Assembly (NCBI GenBank): GCA_009760855.2
Contig: WPIO01000002.1
Span: 13,634,001-13,698,000 of the forward strand
Source of the DNA: Cristatella mucedo
Lineage: Eukaryota; Bryozoa; Phylactolaemata; Cristatellidae
Direction of reading: 5' to 3'
Length of the DNA stretch: 64,000 nt
The notes beneath the pieces are model-generated. The model saw only the letters and a list, made by a program, of their open reading frames with translations. It had not been told where the DNA came from and did no database searches. Position numbers and translations under genes: made by a program. Positions 124 through 63,804 of this stretch are shown in pieces. Every line of letters begins with the position of its first letter. Position 1 is the first letter of the stretch.

Positions 124-280
124 GCTTGCTGATTTGGCCCACTGGTTAAAGTGCTCGCCCCGACCAAGGTCTGGCCGAGGTCGCGGGCTCGAGCCCCCGC
201 GGCACATGCGAAGCGCCTGAATAGAGATTAACTTCTCTTAGGTTGCTATGCAAATTAATGTTATTGATTTATTCTATTTA
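124..280 (+). mobile_element. SINE-1 copy (tRNA-derived SINE with L-A-like tail)
   Basis: The head carries a pol III A-box-like TTGGCCCACTGGTTAAAGTG and a B-box-like GGGCTCGAGCCCC, the two internal promoter elements of tRNA genes. The 3' part has AGCGCC, then AGAGATTAACTTCTCT, and ends in an AT-rich tail. In other copies the AGCGCC arm pairs with GGCGCT; here the second arm is decayed. It starts directly after Rep-D copy 1. It is non-coding, and I see no clear target-site duplication. Confidence 0.85.
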
Positions 281-558: not shown

Positions 559-680
559 TAATAATAATACATTTGATAAAGCGCCCTCAGAGAACTCAAT
601 CTTTTTCTAGGTGCATTACATTTGCTGCAAAGGAAACACGATCGTGTGGTGGATGTTGTAGCTACTAGCATATCTATCAA
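559..680 (-). mobile_element. L-A LINE, 3' end fragment
   Basis: On the minus strand this ends in (ATT)n and contains the L-A 3' hairpin: GCGCCCTCAGAGAACTCAAT on the plus strand, then TTTCTAGGTGC. The adjoining TTTGCTGCAAAGGAAA is typical of the L-A 3' UTR. It is a short 5'-truncated insertion with no coding sequence left. Confidence 0.8.
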
Positions 681-8340: not shown

Positions 8341-8925
8341 ATTATAATAATTATTATTAGGAAAATATTAATATTACATTTGAATAGAGCTCCCAGAAAG
8401 CTTACTCTTTTTCTGGGCACTTTACATATGATGCAACTGCAGCATAACAATATAGTCAGTGGTAGCATGTACAGTATCAGCATGCATAATATGATTTCTT
8501 TTAACATGCAAGGTGTCAACATGCAAATACGGTTATTGGTAACATATGAAGTCTCAGCAGATATAAGCACACAAAGGACAAATTCATAAGGACCAAGCAA
8601 ACTCTGTGAAAAACAGCTGTGTTTTAGCTTCTTTTTAAAGTTTGCCAAGTCAGGAGATGTCGTGACATCAGTCGGCAGTGCGGTCCAGGTTTTGACAGCA
8701 TGCGAACTAAAGGGACGGTCTTCAAAGGATTTGAGGAATAGCCAGACGATTTGAGTCAGAGGTATGGTGTTTTGATGCCTTACCTGTTTTGGAATTGGTT
8801 CTCATAGGTCGGCTGAAGCAATAGAATGATCGGGGCCGAAAAATGAGTTACAAAACCTTTAATTCGATACTTTGCTCGGTTGGCAGCCAGTGCAAGTCGG
8901 CTATAGCAAGCTCTAAGCTTGTGAA
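8341..8925 (-). mobile_element. L-A LINE, 3' fragment
   Basis: Minus-strand L-A. The plus strand shows ATTATAATAATTATTATTAG (the tail), a decayed hairpin near 8385-8420, the repeated AACATGCAAGGTGTCAACAT 3' UTR block, then antisense ORF2 codons up to the CACTGGCTGCC/HWLPV region near 8880. It inserted into or replaced the 3' UTR of the L-B copy that follows. All frames are broken. Confidence 0.75.
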
Positions 8926-9068
8926 GTTTTGTTACTCATCCAGCAGACTTCATCTTACGCACACAAAAAGAACATGAGAAGCATAGCGGTCATGAGGGCA
9001 GTTGAGGCAGTGAGTAGCTTGGAAGCAAAAGTGAAGGAAAGACGGAAATTACGTTCGACAGTTGGCAT

Positions 9069-9220
9069 CGCCGAGCTGGGTTGGTCCAGCGGTTAAGGTG
9101 CTCGCCCCGACCAAGGTCTGGCTGAGGTCGTGGGCTCGAGCCCTGAGGCATATGTGAAGCGCCTGGATAGAGATTTAGTTCTCTTGGGGCGCTATACAAA
9201 TGAATTATTATTATTATTAT
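9069..9220 (+). mobile_element. SINE-1 copy nested in L-B
   Basis: One of the best-preserved copies. The A-box-like segment is TTGGTCCAGCGGTTAAGG and the B-box-like segment is GGGCTCGAGCCC. The tail hairpin has outer arms AGCGCC and GGCGCT and inner arms AGAGA and TCTCT. The end is CAAATGAATTATTATT. No convincing target duplication could be read. Confidence 0.92.
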
Positions 9221-9380
9221 CATAAGAGGAAATATCGCTCTGTAAGTATTACGGCAGCAAGTTTCTCTTTCTAGGACCTGTATAGAAAAAGCCTCCATAG
9301 TCAACAGTCTTTGAACGAAAGAATGGAATGGCTTGTTGGAGTATCTACAGACTACCCAAGTCACGAGGAGACTGATTGCT

Positions 9381-9722
9381 CCCAAAGCCTGGAACTCCCT
9401 CCCGACCTGCGTCAGAACATTCCCTGACCTGACCACATTTAAAAGGAACCTAAAAACACACCTATTTACGACAGCAGTTAGTGGGTCCCTGTGGTTCGTC
9501 CTTCATATACTTATGCGTGCTGACACCGTGAATGCTGCCACTAACCACATTTGCAAGCTGACCCTGTGCATGTTACCCCTAACCATATTATTCATTTTGT
9601 TTGTTTTTCAAGCATGATTTTACTTACCATTCAATTGCATGTTCCTTTGCAGCAAATGTAAAGCGCCTAGAAAGAGATTAAGTTCTCTGAGGGCGCTTTA
9701 TCAAGTGCATTATTATAATTAT
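9381..9722 (+). mobile_element. L-A LINE 3' end nested in L-B
   Basis: It starts abruptly in the ORF2 C-terminal region (AKAWNSLPTCVRT-like codons, then LTTFKRNLKTHLF), passes the stop near 9487 and ends in a well-formed 3' hairpin at 9659-9700. The outer arms are TAAAGCGCC and GGCGCTTTA (9 of 9 pairs); the inner arms are AGAGA and TCTCT. ATTATTATAATTATT follows. This is the clearest reference copy of the L-A tail. Confidence 0.9.
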
Positions 9723-10565
9723 TCTGGTGCAGCAGTTCAACTAGGTGTGACGGAGCCAAGCCATGGCAGGCCATGTGGATCTCCGTAGGAATTCTTGCAG
9801 TGTATCTATTGATCAACTGTGAGCCTTACCAGCTCATTGAACAAGGAAGGCTCATAGCGGAAAGTCGTGGATTTGTGTTGCAAACTTGCAGCCATAGTGT
9901 TTCTCAGCTGCAGATGCTCAATGACTTTTTCGGGTAGCACGGTCAAAACCTAATTACATGAATTATAGCTAAGACATGACTAGGGAGCCCGTGAGGTCTT
10001 TAACCGCTTCCCGTGGTAGGCAATCTTAAAGTGTGATAGGGGTATAATGTAGTGGCTGTCGGTAGACGTGGTCCTCTGAATTAAACTTCTAAACATTAAA
10101 CCGTTATTAAAGTGTACACCTAAATTATGAGCGCAATGATGATTTGGAGGATTGATGTCGCCATTAGTCGATACCTACAGGTGGCCCCTTTTCGGCTGGT
10201 TAGTGAGAACCTCCCTGAATCCTGCGTTTGCCCCATCAACAGCTCGGCTATCAAACATATGACCCATAATTTTAAAGCGCTGAATAGTACTCGTTGCGGT
10301 AGTAGCTCACCTGCCGTACCTCGGCATGCTGTGAAACGTTAACCGGCGACCGTTACTAAAGTTCAATTCAAACTCGAAGGGGCTGCTTCTGCCAGGCCTG
10401 CCACACACCGTCTTGAATGCAAGCCGCTTAATGGATGTCACGAAGTTGTTGGACAGCCTCTTAAATTCTGCCTACTAAATGTCTGTTCGCTAAAAACAAG
10501 GGTCACTTATTCGGGATCAGGCTGTCCAGGAGAATCTAGATGCATTTCTGGTTAGCGAAACTTGG

Positions 10566-11141
10566 ATGACGCCTTGCTCCGGTAGCTGTATATCTGAGAT
10601 CACCCCGCCCGGGTTCTCATTTTTTCAGCCCATGCGTTCTGACAAAGTTGGTGGTGGGGTTGCAATTGTTGTTCGGGAATCGCTTGGCTATAAGATATGC
10701 AGTTTTTTGCATGGGCCATCGTTTGAATCAGTTGCAATCAGGTCCTCATCAAAGACATTGCCTCTCACTGTTATGGTATACCGACCTCCTGCTGGCTGTC
10801 TAAACTTGTTTATAGAGGAGCTTTTGGAGTTCCTCGCTAAAATATTAATGTGTGACAGGCCGTTACTGATTGCTGGAGACTTTAATATTCACGTTTGAAA
10901 CCCTATAAACAGCCAGGTCCGCTCATTTATTGACTGTCTGGAAAATTTTGGTTTGGTCCAACACGTTAATCATACCACTCACGTCGGTGGCCATATCCTT
11001 GATCTAGTGATCACTAAGGATGTCTACCCCACTGACCTTGTGGTGTGCCCACTGACCCTCTCGGATTATTGTTTGGTCTCTTGTTTACTGTTCCTGCTCC
11101 CTTGTACGTACAGGCAATGTCGAACTTGTCCAGCGACGTAA
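10566..11141 (+). pseudogene. L-B APE-type endonuclease domain with one stop
   Basis: The reading frame is continuous from 10566 to 11141 except for the TGA at 10896-10898. Visible motifs, in order: GGGVAIVVRES, VYRPP, GDFNIH, and a HILDLVITKD-like segment. These are typical of the apurinic-endonuclease-like domain that nicks target DNA in LINE integration. The conserved C-terminal SDH motif appears as SDY near 11064. Confidence 0.8.
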
Positions 11142-12010
11142 CTTAAAAAGCATTGACACAGACAACATTTCTAAATCTGCTTGCGATGCAGGGCTTCTTG
11201 ATCTGCACCCAGACTCGATCAACAGCCTCGATACCCTGACAGATGCAGTGAACGAGAAACTTAGGAATGCTCTTGAAAAGCATGCTCCCGTTCATTATAT
11301 CCGTGTACAGAGTCGTGGAGATTCCTTTCAAATTATAAAAACTTCAAAAGATGCTTCGAGTTAAGCGAGGCCTTCAACGTCGTTTTAAGAAATCGGGGTC
11401 TGATGCAGATATAATCAATTTCAAAAAATTAAGCTTCCTTCAATTTTAAACCCGGAAGTTTAAAAAAGCCAGGGTTTCTTCTTTTTCACTCTAAAACTGA
11501 AGTCCTGCCAGTCAGACCCAAGGCAGCTTTATAGGACGGTAAACATTTTACTGGCCAATTCTGAGAGGCTGACTCTCCAGATATTAACAGCCCAGTCAAA
11601 AATATTTCAGCCTTCTTTACTGAAACAATTGTGCACATTATTTTCTACATAAAGGTCCAACCGAGTAAAGCAATTACGAAATTGTAACCTACGAGCCTTC
11701 TTTAAAGATTTTCCGAGGTTGCTGCATGTAAAGTGGCTACCTTAATAAGGTCTAGTAAAAAGAGCTCGTCTTCTGAAGACCGTACACCTTTATCTCTGTG
11801 GTCATCACTGGCAGACCAACTTAACCCCACCGTAACCGAGATTTTAATGCTTCTATGGAAAAAAAGGGTTGTGCCCAATTCCTTCAAATCTGAAATCGTT
11901 TGACCGATACTTAAAGCCTGGATTAGATACAGGGGTCCTTGCAAGCTATTGCTCAGTTTCCCTTCTTTTTTTGTCAAAGATTCTAGAAAAATCTTTCGCT
12001 AAGCAGCTCG

Positions 12011-12013
<3 letters not shown>

Positions 12014-12055
<42 letters not shown>

Positions 12056-12187
12056 CATTTATATAGCACCGTAAGAGAACTTAATCTCTATTCGATCACA
12101 TCACATATGTCACAGGGTTCGAGACCACGACTTCAGCCAGACCTTGGTCGGGCGACCACCTTAACCACTGGGCTAAACCAGCTTGGC
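12014..12187 (-). mobile_element. SINE-1 copy nested in L-B
   Basis: On the plus strand: (TA)n at about 12014-12052, AATTCATTTATATAGCACC, AGAGAACTTAATCTCTATTC, then the B-box complement GGTTCGAGACC, and CACCTTAACCACTGGGCTAA as the A-box complement. It splits the L-B ORF2 between linker and RT. The tail has turned into a TA microsatellite. Confidence 0.88.
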
Positions 12188-12299
12188 GTACATATTGAAA
12201 TGGTAAATATTGGTAACACATATTGAAAAGAATGAAATGTCAGATACATTTTAATCGGGGCTCAAGAGACAGCACTCCACTGAAACTATTCTCCTCCGT

Positions 12300-12866
12300 G
12301 TGAAAAATGACATTCTATGCGGCAACGATGACAGGAATTTCCTTGCCCTAGCTCTGCTAGATCTATCAGCTGCCTTCGATACCATTGGTCACGATGCCCA
12401 ACTTGAACGATTAAGAACAATGATCGATATGGCAGACGAGGCACTGGCGTGGTTTAAATCGTACTTGTCAGATCGGGTTCAATTCGTGTCGTGTGGGGGT
12501 CAGGTCTCATCCACAAAACCGGTCACCAGGGGAATCCCTCAAGGGTCTGTCCTCGGTCCCTTGCTGTTCTCCATGTATACTCAACCTCTAGGAAAAGTGA
12601 TTAAGGCCCATAGAATATGGTATCACTTTTATGCTGGCAATACTTGGCTGTGTTTGTCATTCGAACCGTCGGAATCTGCTGCAGCAACTAACAAACTAAA
12701 TGCTTGCCTTGCCGACATTCGATCCTGGTTGTCGGAAAATTTACTGAAACTAAATGACGACGAGACTAAACTGCTGCTCATAAGACACCATAAGCGTGTG
12801 AATGGATTAGAAGGCTTTGCACTTCTAATATGTGACTCTGCTGTGCGATCATCACCGCGTACTTGA
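12300..12866 (+). pseudogene. L-B reverse transcriptase domain, catalytic motif lost
   Basis: An open stretch of 188 codons. Motif A is LDLSAAFDTIGH at about residues 18-29. The motif B region is TRGIPQGSVLGPLLFSMY near residues 78-95. Motif C is FYAGNTWLCL instead of YADDTQL near residue 110. The LKLNDDETKLLLI segment is near residue 148. The upstream frame is cut off by the SINE-1, and the downstream part (13130-13567) is in another frame. Related to L2/CR1-type RTs. Non-functional. Confidence 0.85.
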
Positions 12867-18990: not shown

Positions 18991-19329
18991 GAACAAGAGC
19001 TAATTTACATGCAATCCGCATTTATCCGTGGTTTTTGCACTTAACAAACCATGTCAGTGCGCTGGAGGTATTACGGAAGTTCCTGCCACTTGCTAAGCGA
19101 GAGCAGCTGAAGCTATTCCTGCTACTGAAGCAGAAGTGGGGCAGCTTAAGGTCTAAGCTGGGTAGTTGTTTAGCCTCTTTTCGACTTTGGTTATACCGAC
19201 TTCCTAGCTCAACACATTATACTTCAGCATGACGAAGTAGAACGTAATCAATTATGGGCTTGCTCTCAACTCAACAGCGAAAAGAGTGACTACGCGACTG
19301 GTGCATTTCTTAATAAGCAAAGCACTTAA

Positions 19330-19468
19330 ATACAACGCATTTATATAGTGCCCCACGAGAACTTAATCTCTATTCAGGGGCTTCACATATGCCTCGGGGC
19401 TCGAGCCCACGACCTCAGTCAGACCTTGGTCGGGGCTAGCACCTTAACCGCTAGACCAACCCAGCTCG
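19330..19468 (-). mobile_element. SINE-1 copy with candidate target duplication
   Basis: The complementary tail CATTTATATAGTGCCCC, then AGAGA...TCTCT (on the plus strand GAGAACTTAATCTCTATTC), the B-box complement GGGGCTCGAGCCC and the A-box complement CACCTTAACCGCTAGACC are all present. GCACTTAA occurs directly on both sides (19322-19329 and 19469-19476), a likely 8-bp target-site duplication. Confidence 0.9.
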
Positions 19469-19524
19469 GCACTTAATGCTTTAAGGGCAGTTGCGAAAGC
19501 TCCGGAAGAAAGCTGGCCACCCTA

Positions 19525-22513: not shown

Positions 22514-22569
22514 CACACCACAGCATATATTGACGACTTGTGCCTGAAGACGTATTTTAAATATAGTAA

Positions 22570-22711
22570 TACTAATATAATTCATTTATATAGCGCCCTA
22601 AGAGAACTGAATCTCTATTTCGGTTTTTTACATGTGCCGCGGGGCTCGAGCCCATGACCTCGGCCACACCTTGGTCGGGACGAGCACCTTATCCACTGGG
22701 CCAAACCAGCG
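22570..22711 (-). mobile_element. SINE-1 copy
   Basis: The plus strand reads ATTCATTTATATAGCGCCCT, then AGAGAACTGAATCTCTATTT, then GGGGCTCGAGCCC (B-box complement) and CACCTTATCCACTGGGCCAA (A-box complement). Confidence 0.9.
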
Positions 22712-37072: not shown

Positions 37073-37639
37073 GGCATGCACTCTATATTGCTTAGCTCTG
37101 TCAAGCCTCTTGTTTTTTAGGGTTCCTCGAAACTCTTTGCAAGTTAAAACCGGGCTTAGAGGGGAGCACCAAATTACTTCTAACTATTCGGGCACCAGCA
37201 TGGACTGCATTGCATGTCCCGGCTTAATAAAAACCACGTGGGACGCCTAGGCTTCTTAATCAGCTCTGAACATAAATAAGCCAAGTTGTATCGGTCACCT
37301 TCCTTTCAAATGCAGTGCGTCTTCTGCTCTATCAGTTCCCAAGAAAACTTGAGTAGTCTGCACAATTTTCCACATAAACGCGAATGAATGCTTAACACTG
37401 AGGGGGAAAATCTTGCATTCCATTTTGGCAGTGGCTGTAGAAGCTGCAGCAGACAAACCCTTTGGTAGCCACCGTTACCCTGTGTGTCATCGCAATTGTT
37501 GGGAAGAAGCCAGCAATGTACTTACTAGCTGGTTAATACTAATATTATTACTGAGACAACCTTCTCAATAATGACAATGCTAATATTGATTCTCTCGTAT
37601 TTCACCTTGAGAGAAAAAAGTCTCCAAGCCAGTCTCCCT

Positions 37640-37795
37640 GGCTTGGCACAGGGTTTAAGGTGTTAGCCATGAACGTCCGAGGTAAAGGTGCTCACTTTGG
37701 AACACCAAAGTGGTGGGTAAGAGCCCTGCTGAATGTGTAAAGTGCCAGGATCGGGATTAAGCTCCCTGAAGGCGCTATAAAAATTGATTTTATTT
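37640..37795 (+). mobile_element. Diverged SINE-1 relative
   Basis: The head CTTGGCACAGGGTTTAAGGT resembles the A-box region. The tail TAAAGTGCCAGGATCGGGAT, then TAAGCTCCCTGAAGGCGCTA, keeps the hairpin order with compensating changes (GGGA pairs with TCCC in place of AGAGA with TCTCT). It ends near ATTGATTTTATT. Confidence 0.6.
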
Positions 37796-38129
37796 AGTTG
37801 TATATTTACATTAATTCTATTCATGCTCTTTACAACTTGCAGCAAGAGAAGCAATAAGCAAGATTTTAGGTAACCAGTACGGAATCAAGCACAGGTACTC
37901 ATACTCAAAGGACACCAGAACCAAAAGGCGAGTTCACTGGAATTTAGGATAACAGGAAAGCTATGTGGAATCGATGCGTATTTAGCTTAGACTTAGATGA
38001 TGCAAATTCAATGCAGGTATGGGGCTGAAGCCAGAAGTAAGTTTTTTTGCTCCTTTGCTGCATAAGAACTGAAATCACGACGAGTCAAAGATTTTCAATT
38101 TAGTGTTAAGACCGGCAAGCCGACAGGTA

Positions 38130-56569: not shown

Positions 56570-57304
56570 TGTAATAATAATAATGATGCACTTGATAAAG
56601 CACCCTCGGAGAACTCAATCTCTTTCTAGGCGCTTTATATTTGCTACAAAGGAAAAGAGATTGAATAGTGAGTGGTATCATGCTTGATAAACAACATGAA
56701 TACTATGGTTAGGGGTGACATGCACAGGGTCAGCATGCAAGTGTGGTTAGTGGCAGCAAGCACAGTGTTAGCATGCATAAGCACATGAAGGACAAATCAC
56801 AGGGACCCACCAAATGCTGTCCTAAATATGTGTTTTTAAGTTCTTTTTTAATTCGGTCAAGTCAGGGAATGTTCTGATGTAAGTCGGGAGGGAGTTCCGG
56901 CTTTGGGGGCGTACGAACTAAATAATGATAATAATAATAATAATAATAATAATGCACTTGATAAAGCGCCCTGAGAGAACTTAATCTCTTTCTAGGCGCT
57001 TTACATTTGCTGCAAAGTGAAATGCAATTGAAGTAAATAAACGGTCTCCAAAGGATTTAAGGTTTGTACGAGGTATTGGTAAACTGTTAGATACCGAAAA
57101 GCGTGTGGTACGATGCTTGGCCTGGCGTTGAGTAGATCTGAGAGATAAGCTGGAGCCAAAGAATAAAGTGACCTAAAGTTGAGCAACAAAACCTTGAAGT
57201 CGATTCGTTGATTGACTGGTAGCCAGTGCAGGTCGGCGAGAATTGGTGTGAAGTGGCAACTGCGACGCTCAAGACAGACAATCCTAGCTGCAGAGTTTTA
57301 CACC
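56570..57304 (-). mobile_element. L-A LINE 3' fragment with a nested L-A tail
   Basis: The plus strand begins with (TAA)n, the hairpin (AAGCACCCTCGGAGAACTC, then TCTTTCTAGGCGCTTTATA) and the 3' UTR block, then antisense ORF2 end codons to the NSAAR region at 57300. It is interrupted at 56926-57033 by another L-A 3' end. TGTATGTGCTAT occurs on both sides (56547-56558 and 57307-57318) and may be part of a target duplication. Confidence 0.87.
56926..57033 (-). mobile_element. Short L-A tail insertion inside L-A
   Basis: A 108-base 5'-truncated copy: a (TAA)n tail, CACTTGATAAAGCGCCCT, then AGAGAACTTAATCTCTTTCT, then TTTGCTGCAAAGTG. Flanked by TAAATAA at 56919-56925 and 57034-57040. Removing the insert restores the host L-A order (CGAACTAAA, then ACGGTCTCC). 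Confidence 0.88.
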
Positions 57305-59767: not shown

Positions 59768-59814
59768 AATAATATAATATAATAATTCACTTGATAAAGC
59801 GCCCTCAGAGAACT

Positions 59815-59865
<51 letters not shown>

Positions 59866-61205
59866 GGCGCTTTACATTTGCTGTAAAGTGAAATGCAATT
59901 GAATGGTAAGTGAAATCATGCTTGAAAAACAAACGAAATGAATAATATGGTTAGGGGTGACATGCACAGGGTCAGCATGCAAATGTGGTTAGTGGCAGCA
60001 TGCACAATGTCAGCACGCATAAGCACATCAAGGACGAATCACAGGGACCCAGTAAATGCTGTCCTAAATAGGTGTGTTTTTAGGTTCCTTTTAAATGTGG
60101 TCAGGTCAGGGGATGTTCTGACGCAGGTCGGGAGGGAGTTCCAGGCTTTGGGAGCATACGAACTAAATGCACGGTCTCCAAAGGAATTGAGGTTTGTACG
60201 GGGTATTTGTAGACTGTTGGATTCCGAAAAGCGGGTGGTACGATGCTTGGCCTGATGGGGTAGTATATCTGACAGATAGGCTGGAGCCATAGAATGAAGG
60301 GACCTAAAAGTGAGCGACAAAACCTTGAAGTCAATCCGTTGCTTGACTGGTAGCCAGTGCAGGTCGGTGAGAAGTGGAGTAATGTGGCAACTGCGACGCT
60401 CACGGCAGCCAAGTCTAGCTGCCGAGTTTTGCACGAGCTGCAATCGCCTGATCGCACATGCTGGTAGGCCAGTAAGCAGTGAGTTGCAGAAGTCGAGACG
60501 AGATGTCACGAATGCATGGACCAACTTGGACGTGGTATCTTTATCTAAACAAGCCCGAATTTTAGCAATGTTATGAAGCTGAAAATAGGCAGATTTGACT
60601 GTGGAGCTGATATGGTCGTCTAACGAGAGGTCGCTTTGGAATATGAAACCTAGATTTCGAGCTGATTCAACTGGAGATATGCTGGCAGAGCCAATTTTGA
60701 GAGTCAGCCCTTCCAATCTCTGGATCACACTGGGTTTGCCCATAACTAGTAAGTTAGTTTTATCATCGTTAAGTTTTAGAAAATTTGCTGCCATCCATAT
60801 GCGGATGTCATCAATGCATGCAGCTAGTGAGTTTAGAGAATTTGAGGTGCTCGAAGGCTGGGAGGGATCAAAGCAAAGGAACAACTGAGTGTCATCCGCA
60901 TAGAAGTGAAAGCCTAGATTGTGCTTGGCAATCACATCAGCAAGAGGCAGAGTATAAACCGTGAAAAGAACCGGACCTAGCACGAAGCCCTGTGGTACTC
61001 CATATTTCAGAGGTACTTCAGATGATCTTTGTCCATTCACGTCAATACTCTGGAGTCTCCCACTGAGATAGGACCTGAACCACTGCAGAGCAGTGCCAGT
61101 GATGCCCAGGCGAGATGAGAGGCGCTCTAGAAGAACTTTGTGATCAATGGTATCAAAAGCTGCCGAAAGATCAAGCAAAACAAGCAGAGACACTCTACCC
61201 ATGCA
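59768..61205 (-). pseudogene. Youngest L-A LINE copy, 5' truncated, 387-codon ORF
   Basis: The minus-strand ORF at 60039-61202 is uninterrupted. RT motif A is LLDLSAAFDTIDH near residues 8-20. Motif B is GVPQGFVLGPVLFTVY (usual Ser replaced by Phe). Motif C is FHFYADDTQLFLCFD, the only intact YADD in the window. Then come LKLNDDKTNLLVMG, SLDDHISSTVKSAYFQL, TSRLDFCNSLLTGLPACAI, LHWLPVKQRIDFKVLSL and the AKAWNSLPTCVRTSP end. The ATG at the start was made at the insertion junction and is not the element's own. The endonuclease is lost. The 3' UTR is about 270 bases. The hairpin loop holds a (TC)n expansion (59818-59864). Flanked by AGCCTAT. Confidence 0.92.
59818..59864. repeat. (TC)n expansion inside the L-A 3' hairpin
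   Basis: 47 bases of TC repeats take the place of the usual AATCTCTTTCT between AGAGAACTTA and TAGGCGCTTTA. The hairpin arms on both sides are kept. Confidence 0.95.
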
Positions 61206-61790
61206 AGCCTATGCAATCTGGAGCTTACAGTTGGTGCACAACCTGTAGCTAAATTTGTCTGTCGTGAGCTTTACAGTTGCGACTTCACACTAATTCTCGC
61301 AGACCTGCACTGGCTCCCAATCAAGCAGCATATCGACTTCAAGGTTCTGACATTCACTTTTAGGTCCCTTCATTCTCTGGCTCCGGCATACCTATCAGAA
61401 CTACTCTCCCACCAGGCTAGGCATCGTACTATCCACTTTTCGGAATCTAATCGTTTACCTATGTACAAATCTAAAATCCTTCGGAGACCGTGCCTTTAGT
61501 TCGTATGGTCCCAAAGCCTGAAACTCAGTCCCGACCTTCGTCAAATCTCCTGACTTGTCCGCATTTAAAAAGAAACTAAAAATGCATCTATTTATCACAG
61601 CATTTGGTGCGTACTTTATGTACTTTATTATACTTTACTTTATTATACTTTACATACTTTATTCGACCTTTATGTGCTTACATTTGCTGACACTGTGGAT
61701 GCTGCAACAAACCTGCATGCTGACCCTGTGCATGTCAACCCTAACAAAGTTATTCTTGTTCTTTATTGAGCATGCCCCCAGAATTTTTCT
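61206..61790 (+). pseudogene. Older L-A LINE copy, right part
   Basis: Continues the copy at 59632-59767: LQLVHN-like codons, then LHWLPIKQHIDFKVLTFTFR, SLHSLAPAYLSELLSHQARH, and the 3' UTR with ATGCTGACCCTGTGCATGTC. A TACTTTAT-type duplication lies at about 61613-61670. It fades out before a hairpin near 61790. Confidence 0.85.
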
Positions 61791-62700: not shown

Positions 62701-63703
62701 TATTAGGGCCAGTCCACTACAGCCGGCTGCAACGTTAGTTGCAACGGCGATCGCTCGAGCCTCTGGCTTCTAGCTAGCTTCTACTGGGCGCCGTGGCAGT
62801 GGCAGCACTCGATCGCTGTAAGCGAACCTGCATCAGGTTTGCTATGCGCGACGTTCGATATGTCTGCCGCCCTATGGGGTAGCAACAACTGTGCCGGGTG
62901 AAACATGTAGACATTCTAAAATAGGGGGCGACAGGTTCTAAGAATGCACCGCTGGATTCAGGGAACGGGAAAGATATATTTTTACATAGGATAACTAGTC
63001 AATACCATACCCCCTAACTTTTTCTATTGAACAGCAATAAACATAGACACATCAAATACGGAATGAACCATTTTAGTTTGTTATTATGTCAAACTTGATT
63101 ACAGAAGAACTCACCGTTCTGACTGCATAAAAAATACATTTTATACATAAATAAGTAAAAATGTGTTGCATTTTGTACTAATGAATAGACTGCATAGAAA
63201 TAGTAATAGAAATAGAAATGTATAGAGCCCTAAACGCTGGTAAATCTCTTCCCAGGCACTTTCGACGTGAAGGAAAGGAAAGGGCCTTGGCTGGATCAGG
63301 TTGCAGAACTTATTTTTAAGAAAAACCAACTCCGGTTACTTTCGTCATTTGTTTAAGCTTAAATGCCACATTATTTGTTTTGCTCTCTTAGTAGCCCCTC
63401 GGTTCTCTTCCTCTGGCTAATGGCTCTACTCGGCAAGCTCGGACTCGGCCACCTTTAACTGCCTCTAATCAGCCTCAAATTATTCGGGACCGAGCATTTT
63501 GCTCCTAATCATCTACTGCCTACAACTCTACCTGCTGAAATCTCGACATCACGTGACGTTGCATGCACAGCAAATCAGATACCCAGCTATTCTTTACTGC
63601 TTGTACCTTATCACACTGTGAAGCATCCAGGATTGGCTCGTTAAGGCTGCAGTTGGAAATTGTGTTGTTATAATCAGATGATATCCTACCTTTTTTAAAG
63701 GAC
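62701..63703. other. Unassigned sequence
   Basis: GC-rich at 62740-62830, then AT-rich. No gene or repeat recognised. Confidence 0.3.
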
Positions 63704-63757
63704 TTCATTTGTATAGTGCCCAAACAGAACTGAATCTCTATACAGGTACTTTATATT
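63704..63757 (-). mobile_element. SINE-1 tail fragment
   Basis: Plus strand: TCATTTGTATAGTGCCC, then CAGAACTGAATCTCTATACA, then GGTACTTTATA. No tRNA-like head follows. Confidence 0.65.
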
Positions 63758-63804
63758 GGTCTATCTGCCTATTACATTGGTTTATGTGCCTTTACATTGG
63801 TAAA

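Follow-up and report, generated by a model that had tools for sequence, protein, structure and literature searches.

A bryozoan SINE that carries the 3' stem-loop of an older LINE branch and is probably copied by the same LINE lineage

SINE-1 and the LINE L-A have in common a 3' end of about 60 nt that holds one stem-loop. We consider it likely that SINE-1 took over its tail from an older LINE, referred to below as LINE', and that it is copied via the 3' stem-loop by the ORF2 protein of the L-A lineage, recently probably by that of L-A itself. Coordinates refer to the window, by which we mean the whole stretch of 64,000 nt that was analysed (positions 13634001-13698000 of its contig), and genome-wide counts to the 572-Mb assembly of 688 contigs.

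An initial annotation of the window had described both elements, and the sequence features and positions that it gave for them are present as described. SINE-1 occupies 9066-9220 on the plus strand (start approximate) and joins a Pol III-type head to a LINE-derived tail. The tail with its stem-loop (9148-9206, plus; stems 9154-9163/9188-9197 and 9169-9173/9180-9184) reads AAGCGCC (9157-9163), AGAGA (9169-9173), TCTCT (9180-9184) and GGGCGCT (9187-9193), followed by (ATT)n. The L-A copy at 9378-9715 (plus) is 5'-truncated and retains the C-terminus of the reverse transcriptase (RT; tblastn 89% over 38 aa), the 3' UTR and the hairpin tail; its stem-loop (9656-9701, plus) runs through TAAAGCGCC (9659-9667), AGAGA (9673-9677), TCTCT (9684-9688) and GGCGCTTTA (9692-9700) into an interrupted (ATT)n. 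Both insertions are nested, as had been noted, in a single copy of an older minus-strand LINE, L-B (8361-9958), with RT fragments at 8592-8904 and a hairpin-type tail at 8361-8434 (fold z -2.28); on its far side, L-B is represented by a single RT match, weak at 50% identity (9881-9958, E 0.037). Remains of another EN-RT element, judged by eye, adjoin the nested insertions at 10440-12866 (plus) and include an RT fragment at 12255-12866 (plus) that is unlike L-A.

When 9069-9225 was used as the query of a single-sequence search of the window, the matches included the head in 11 copies (E at most 6e-5) and were confined to the 3' part in 12 (E from 3e-10 to 3e-5), with weaker matches after these. 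The 12 comprise 11 tails of the L-A lineage, some of them bodiless, and a headless SINE-type tail (ATAGAGA ... CTATACAAATGAA) at 63699-63759 (minus), for which no head is recognised. Single-sequence search places older SINE-1 copies at 128-267 (plus), 19328-19470 (minus) and 22564-22710 (minus), and a diverged copy with the apical stem CGGGA/TCCCT at 37637-37797 (plus). We rest the homology of the tails on this kind of search and left E-values from iterated profile models unused, as such models blend SINE-1 and L-A. Elsewhere in the window, L-A is represented by a short 5'-truncated copy with intact hairpin (56935-57041, minus; fold z -5.09) and by the C-terminal half of its RT, open over 389 aa (60042-61208, minus; RVT_1 E 2e-19). 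The tail of the latter copy (59781-59882, minus) has a GA-repeat expansion (AGAGAGAGA...) in its 5' arm, which is long there and in locus L095 and short in L022.

The initial annotation had named tails that align no better than chance as the outcome that would count against it. The opposite is seen: the pairwise score of the SINE-1 and L-A tails is 63, and none of 2000 dinucleotide shuffles scores above 28. Between young consensuses, built from 30 genomic copies per family that were picked by similarity to the window copies, 55 of 67 aligned positions are identical (a few repeat units included), and both young consensuses end in (ATT)n. The likeness of SINE-1 to the LINE tail starts at about GCAGC, directly after the head, and identity extends over the loop, the internal loop and the flanks. 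The older SINE-1 copies L061, L072 and 12045-12188 of the window end in (AT)n, while young SINE-1 ends in (ATT)n like L-A; this shift may reflect an altered copying machine.

The head itself has an A box, TGGTCCAGCGG, and a B box, GGCTCGAGCCC, at the spacing of Pol III promoters in the copy at 9066-9220. Nine of the 11 window copies were taken for testing: the A box is exact in eight (in two of these at another place), and the B box has at most two mismatches in five and three mismatches in four. Only one in 1000 letter shuffles of a SINE-1 copy matches the two boxes as well. ARAGORN reports nothing on the SINE-1 head at default settings and a tRNA-Glu, at lowered threshold, on the typed majority sequence of older heads; searched with Rfam at E-values up to 5, 12 of 15 older SINE loci yield no tRNA. 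What supports the tRNA-like head that had been proposed is its A and B boxes. Target-site duplications showed no excess in a first test (3.09 versus 3.71 permuted) and a small excess in a second that used the 5' boundary only (3.13 versus 2.54 +/- 0.20; 23 of 30 loci).

Both tails are predicted to fold into one and the same hairpin, with a lower stem of about 10 pairs, an internal loop of 5 + 3 nt, an apical AGAGA/UCUCU stem and a loop of 6 nt, so that the proposal of a common 3' hairpin is borne out by fold as well as by score. Support for the stem-loop comes from single copies folded against shuffles: z is -4.78 for SINE-1 and -5.49 for L-A (none of 200 shuffles was as good), -4.08 and -4.32 for the LINE' copies L068 and L071, and a weak -1.67 for the diverged SINE-1 copy at 37637-37797. 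RNAalifold predicts no structure from the mixed SINE/LINE tail alignment. In the four source consensuses, 14 or 15 of 15 pairs are formed. Across a 46-column core, young SINE-1 and L-A differ at eight columns, five of them unpaired and three at the base of the lower stem, and nowhere in the 22 inner stem columns. Eight differences placed randomly in 44 columns would all miss the inner 22 with P=0.002, for a boundary that was set post hoc. The loop reads UUUAGU in young SINE-1 versus UUAAGU in L-A; UUAAGU is also found in many other SINE copies, and UUUAGU in the LINE copy L071. The suggestion that the hairpin is the recognition element remains a likely one.

Paired changes in the diverged copy (GGGA with TCCC) had been read as a hint of selection on RNA structure, a reading that does not hold up. 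That copy has one compensated pair, an A-U to G-C change at columns 20-31, and another pair in the same apical stem that is broken (A to C). We collected 84 tails, two of them consensuses, and removed one over-long tail and 11 with indels; without the two consensuses and one duplicate, 69 rows with 68 distinct tails were available for a covariation test, 19 of which had come via a search pattern, CAGCATATGTRAAGYGCCTGRATAGAGATTNAGT, that constrains the 5' arm. Among the 68, four pairs are double-changed versus 5.4 +/- 1.3 in shuffles, with 11 double-changed cells versus 14.3, covariation of 0.141 versus 0.152 and 81.5% versus 82.1% of cells paired. The A-U to G-C change is the sole double cell in the apical stem. 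Sliding the stem partner by one to three columns lowers the fraction of pairing cells from 82% to 33-61%, a drop that is expected where the structure was derived from the same sequences. Three further sets, collected by genome-wide patterns, agree: double changes number 10 versus 9.68 expected under independence in LINE' (one of the 10 pairs), 1 versus 0.75 in L-A and 1 versus 1.15 in SINEs (each of these two pairs). Compensatory changes in the stems, the check that had been suggested, are therefore no commoner than chance in any of the four sets. The hint thus falls to the refuting condition that the initial annotation had itself set, and we dropped compensatory evolution as evidence for the RNA structure.

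The lower stem has CpG in both arms (GCGCC/GGCGC), and its CpG column pairs, 9-40 and 10-39, account for nine of the 11 double-changed cells; because decay of CpG to TG or CA yields G-U and A-U pairs, paired changes can arise without selection. Genomic copies of SINEs and LINEs are dead on arrival, and covariation at the level of copies is hardly to be expected. Since copies in the genome evolve free of selection on RNA, the source elements are hardly probed by such a test. Compensatory stem change has been reported for the tail of a plant L1, where it is not a defining trait in the part of that review considered here (PMC3747384). More generally, paired changes in dead copies should not be taken for selection when CpG on both arms can mimic it.

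Where did SINE-1 obtain its tail? Its terminus, CTATACAAATG, differs from that of L-A, CTTTATCAAGTG, and the initial annotation had supposed that the true partner of SINE-1 might be a sister subfamily. The pattern CAGCATATGTRAAGYGCCTGRATAGAGATTNAGT, with up to two mismatches, has 4893 genomic matches; 20 picked by eye among those listed are 15 SINEs and five LINEs with SINE-type tails (L066 and L068-L071, of which L070 matches the LINE no further than the final 21 nt of the 3' UTR). A pattern for the LINE flank, searched at three mismatches or fewer, has 3200 matches. Of 20 loci taken from the listed matches, mainly for having GCATATG, four have the L-A terminus and six were excluded because of deletion, expansion or rearrangement (these include L089, whose terminus is L-A-like, and L094, whose terminus is SINE-like), which leaves 10. 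These 10 and the five LINEs above make up the LINE' majority sequence (n=15), GCAGCATATGTAAAGTGCCTAGAAAGAGATTAAGTTCTCTGAGGGTGCTATACAAATGTATT, in which CTATAC is not universal (for example in L069 and L097). It has in common with the majority sequence of the 15 older SINEs, GCAGCATATGTAAAGCGCCTGGATAGAGATTAAGTTCTCTTAGGGTGCTATACAAATGAATT, the string GCAGCATATGTAAAG upstream and CTATACAAATG downstream; the search patterns had already set some of the upstream part of both majorities, and nothing constrained the 3' part.

Using exact patterns on both strands of the whole genome (reversed-pattern controls gave 0 in each case), the SINE B box is followed by CTATACAAATG 3218 times and by the L-A ending 5 times, and the LINE flank by CTATACAAATG 67 times, in diverged copies, and by the L-A ending 14,472 times. 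None of the five joins an L-A tail to a genuine SINE: three, judged from the matched strings only, read as an inverted SINE head next to an L-A end; the other two, which were fetched (L123 and L124), are tail-only L-A insertions in SINEs. From these counts we conclude that the terminus follows the head; they give no sign of a tail taken over from L-A. The sister-subfamily proposal is supported in the form of LINE', which ends like SINE-1, as donor of the tail. The inner changes of SINE-1 are absent from all 67 LINE' ends, and the SINE-1 diagnostic ATAGAGA together with TTRGGG occurs on no LINE copy examined, although a rare active LINE below our sampling is possible.

Tail-only L-A insertions, cut at most about 15 nt upstream of the hairpin, are seen at 560-632 (minus) of the window and at L022, L026, L006, L010, L123 and L124. 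Among the 94 L-A ends listed for contig C1, the 11-nt upstream flank is present exactly in 56; the remaining 38 comprise seven truncated near the hairpin, 30 with 3' UTR and one cut about 40 nt upstream. There may be a hotspot of 5' truncation just beyond the L-A hairpin. As a candidate partner we also considered the family with the strongest RVT_1 matches, and rejected it: 15 of 20 loci fetched from 150 scored hits have no hairpin hit above 10 bits, and in the other five (L101, L103, L111, L117 and L118) the hairpin lies downstream at varying distance or on the opposite strand, which we took to be separate insertions. Loci L102-L120 belong to another LINE family that is abundant and has open RTs; most of its ends read ...GLYDFVELLTEIHYIT or nearly so, and it apparently has no hairpin end of its own.

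The three kinds of tail differ in age. Over 30 columns without CpGs, divergence from the consensus is 11.4% in LINE' (56 of the 67 ends, those without indels), 4.3% in L-A (40 rows) and 5.9% in SINEs (40 rows, several subfamilies), all three sets having been collected by exact flanks and hence biased toward young copies. Outside CpG columns, 2/56, 16/40 and 8/40 rows, respectively, equal the consensus. For the LINE' copy L068, the 40 scored genomic matches comprise L068 itself and 39 others of 84-88% identity, taken whatever their tail type. With L-A (query 9402-9706), all 40 scored matches are 94-100% identical, the figure to set beside that for L068 being 94-95%; with SINE-1, the best 39 other matches of 40 scored are 95-99% identical, and 30 fetched copies chosen by similarity lie on average 1.0% from their consensus. 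In a non-exhaustive search, no LINE with the terminus of SINE-1 turned out to be young. SINE-1 is therefore young and yet keeps the tail of an ancestral LINE, since the 67 LINE' ends are diverged.

L-A copies with an open RT are common. Besides the window copy, at least 105 matches to its open RT (best candidates scored) are 95-96% identical at the amino acid level, 102 of the 105 without internal stop. The 1068-aa open frame of copy L121 contains an endonuclease (EN) at 138-331 and an RT at 612-840, the best solved relatives being LINE-1 ORF2 and R2 proteins. Between the two domains, at 411-432, lies a basic motif, WFTTDIKLAKSTKRKLEKAYKR, also found in L122 and thus in both open frames inspected. 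Zebrafish L2 LINEs have a conserved basic tail-binding region between EN and RT (PMC4176376), and compared with this published cTBR, whose positions we mapped from residue numbers in the text of that paper, the L-A motif keeps the first W, six basic positions and the E, with P replaced by L and the second W by Y. A looser six-basic pattern is matched by 2 of 20,000 protein shuffles, a stricter one (Y allowed, written after seeing the sequence) by none. On the strength of this motif we call L-A a putative L2-type LINE. The partnership of SINE and LINE that had been proposed is supported by the common tail, by the EN and RT of L-A and by a basic motif with L2-clade spacing.

Taken together, we envisage that the last ~60 nt of SINE-1 were captured from LINE', an older LINE of the L-A lineage that ended in GGGTGCTATACAAATG, and that L-A would be a later, very abundant branch of the same lineage whose terminus changed to CTTTATCAAGTG. 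SINE-1 RNA, made by Pol III with the hairpin at its end, would be presented to an ORF2 protein of the lineage, which may bind stem and loop by its basic EN-RT segment and start target-primed reverse transcription from the repeat tail at a nicked target. Only diverged copies of LINE' are seen, and both SINE-1 and L-A are young, so that recent copying of SINE-1 was probably the work of L-A, the best candidate for its motor. The features that the two elements still have in common would in that case suffice for recognition. Against this explanation count the missing excess of stem covariation, the absence of an RNAalifold structure, the lack of the SINE-1 diagnostic changes on the LINE copies examined and the loop difference between SINE-1 and L-A. 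The stronger version, in which SINE-1 has survived the donor of its tail and now depends for copying on a successor, L-A, whose terminus has since changed, we hold tentatively, as something close to an even bet without quite reaching it. If it is true, the parts still in common (two stems, the UU.AGU loop and the repeat) would be what recognition needs, with terminus and internal loop free to drift.

A different motor is conceivable. Imagine that a low-copy LINE' with a CTATACAAATG tail were still active and moved SINE-1, L-A being a mere cousin. In favour of this, SINE-1 keeps the LINE' terminus behind 3218 heads, with no true SINE among the five L-A-tail hits; in addition, the loop decides specificity in zebrafish L2 LINEs (PMC4176376), as far as the portion of that study considered here goes. 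However, just two of the 56 indel-free LINE' ends equal the consensus outside CpG, the best other matches scored for L068 lie at 84-88%, and none of the 67 ends has the inner changes of SINE-1. We regard an active LINE' as unlikely, while giving it real weight. Less probable by a good margin is that the hairpin is a by-product of descent and that the machinery recognises (ATT)n alone, like L1 and poly(A). Absent copy-level covariation and the (ATT)n at the end of both young elements would fit such a scenario, but a number of the older SINE copies finish with (AT)n, the inner stem is the same in two young sources whose unpaired columns have changed, and the L-A motif has the spacing of the published tail-binding region. 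Convergence of the two hairpins, by chance or by selection, has no observation in its favour, deserves practically no credence and is in our view already refuted by the extended alignment, with identity also in loop, internal loop and flanks and with older SINEs and LINE' agreeing at the terminus.

That SINEs and LINEs pair by a common 3' end is already established, and the hairpin has been tested in few LINEs; what is of new interest is the tail that SINE-1 has held over from an apparently dead LINE branch. Tails of donor lineage, successor and SINE stand side by side here, with successor and SINE tails numbering in the thousands, and the minimum recognition signal might therefore be readable from the parts still common to them. 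In passages from the literature on SINE tails and partners, largely from non-subscription papers, we found no description of the SINE-1/L-A family. Ohshima surveyed 58 SINEs with the 3' end of a partner LINE (PMC3747384), and SINE-1 resembles these in its LINE-derived 3' end; its own best match is to old copies of a LINE lineage. Metulj and ZenoSINE of heliconiine butterflies are similar in that pairing with a LINE was inferred from the tails, and differ in having RTE and Zenon partners, the relevant passages making no mention of a hairpin; there, too, accumulation of a SINE and its presumed partner need not run parallel (PMC6685494). The closest parallels are UnaL2 of eel and ZfL2-1/ZfL2-2 of zebrafish, stringent L2-clade LINEs whose 3' stem-loop is needed for copying and which, in the pages drawn on here, are like L-A in being EN-RT LINEs with SINEs that carry their 3' end and in having a basic tail-binding motif between EN and RT, matched by that of L-A (PMC4176376). 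On its sequences, SINE-1/L-A is classed with these stringent LINE-SINE pairs, in which case the LINE protein would need the tail here as well. Two differences stand out: the repeat is (ATT)n here versus (TGTAA)n in UnaL2, according to the part of the survey consulted (PMC3747384), and SINE-1, unlike the UnaL2 and ZfL2 systems, keeps the terminus of an older branch.
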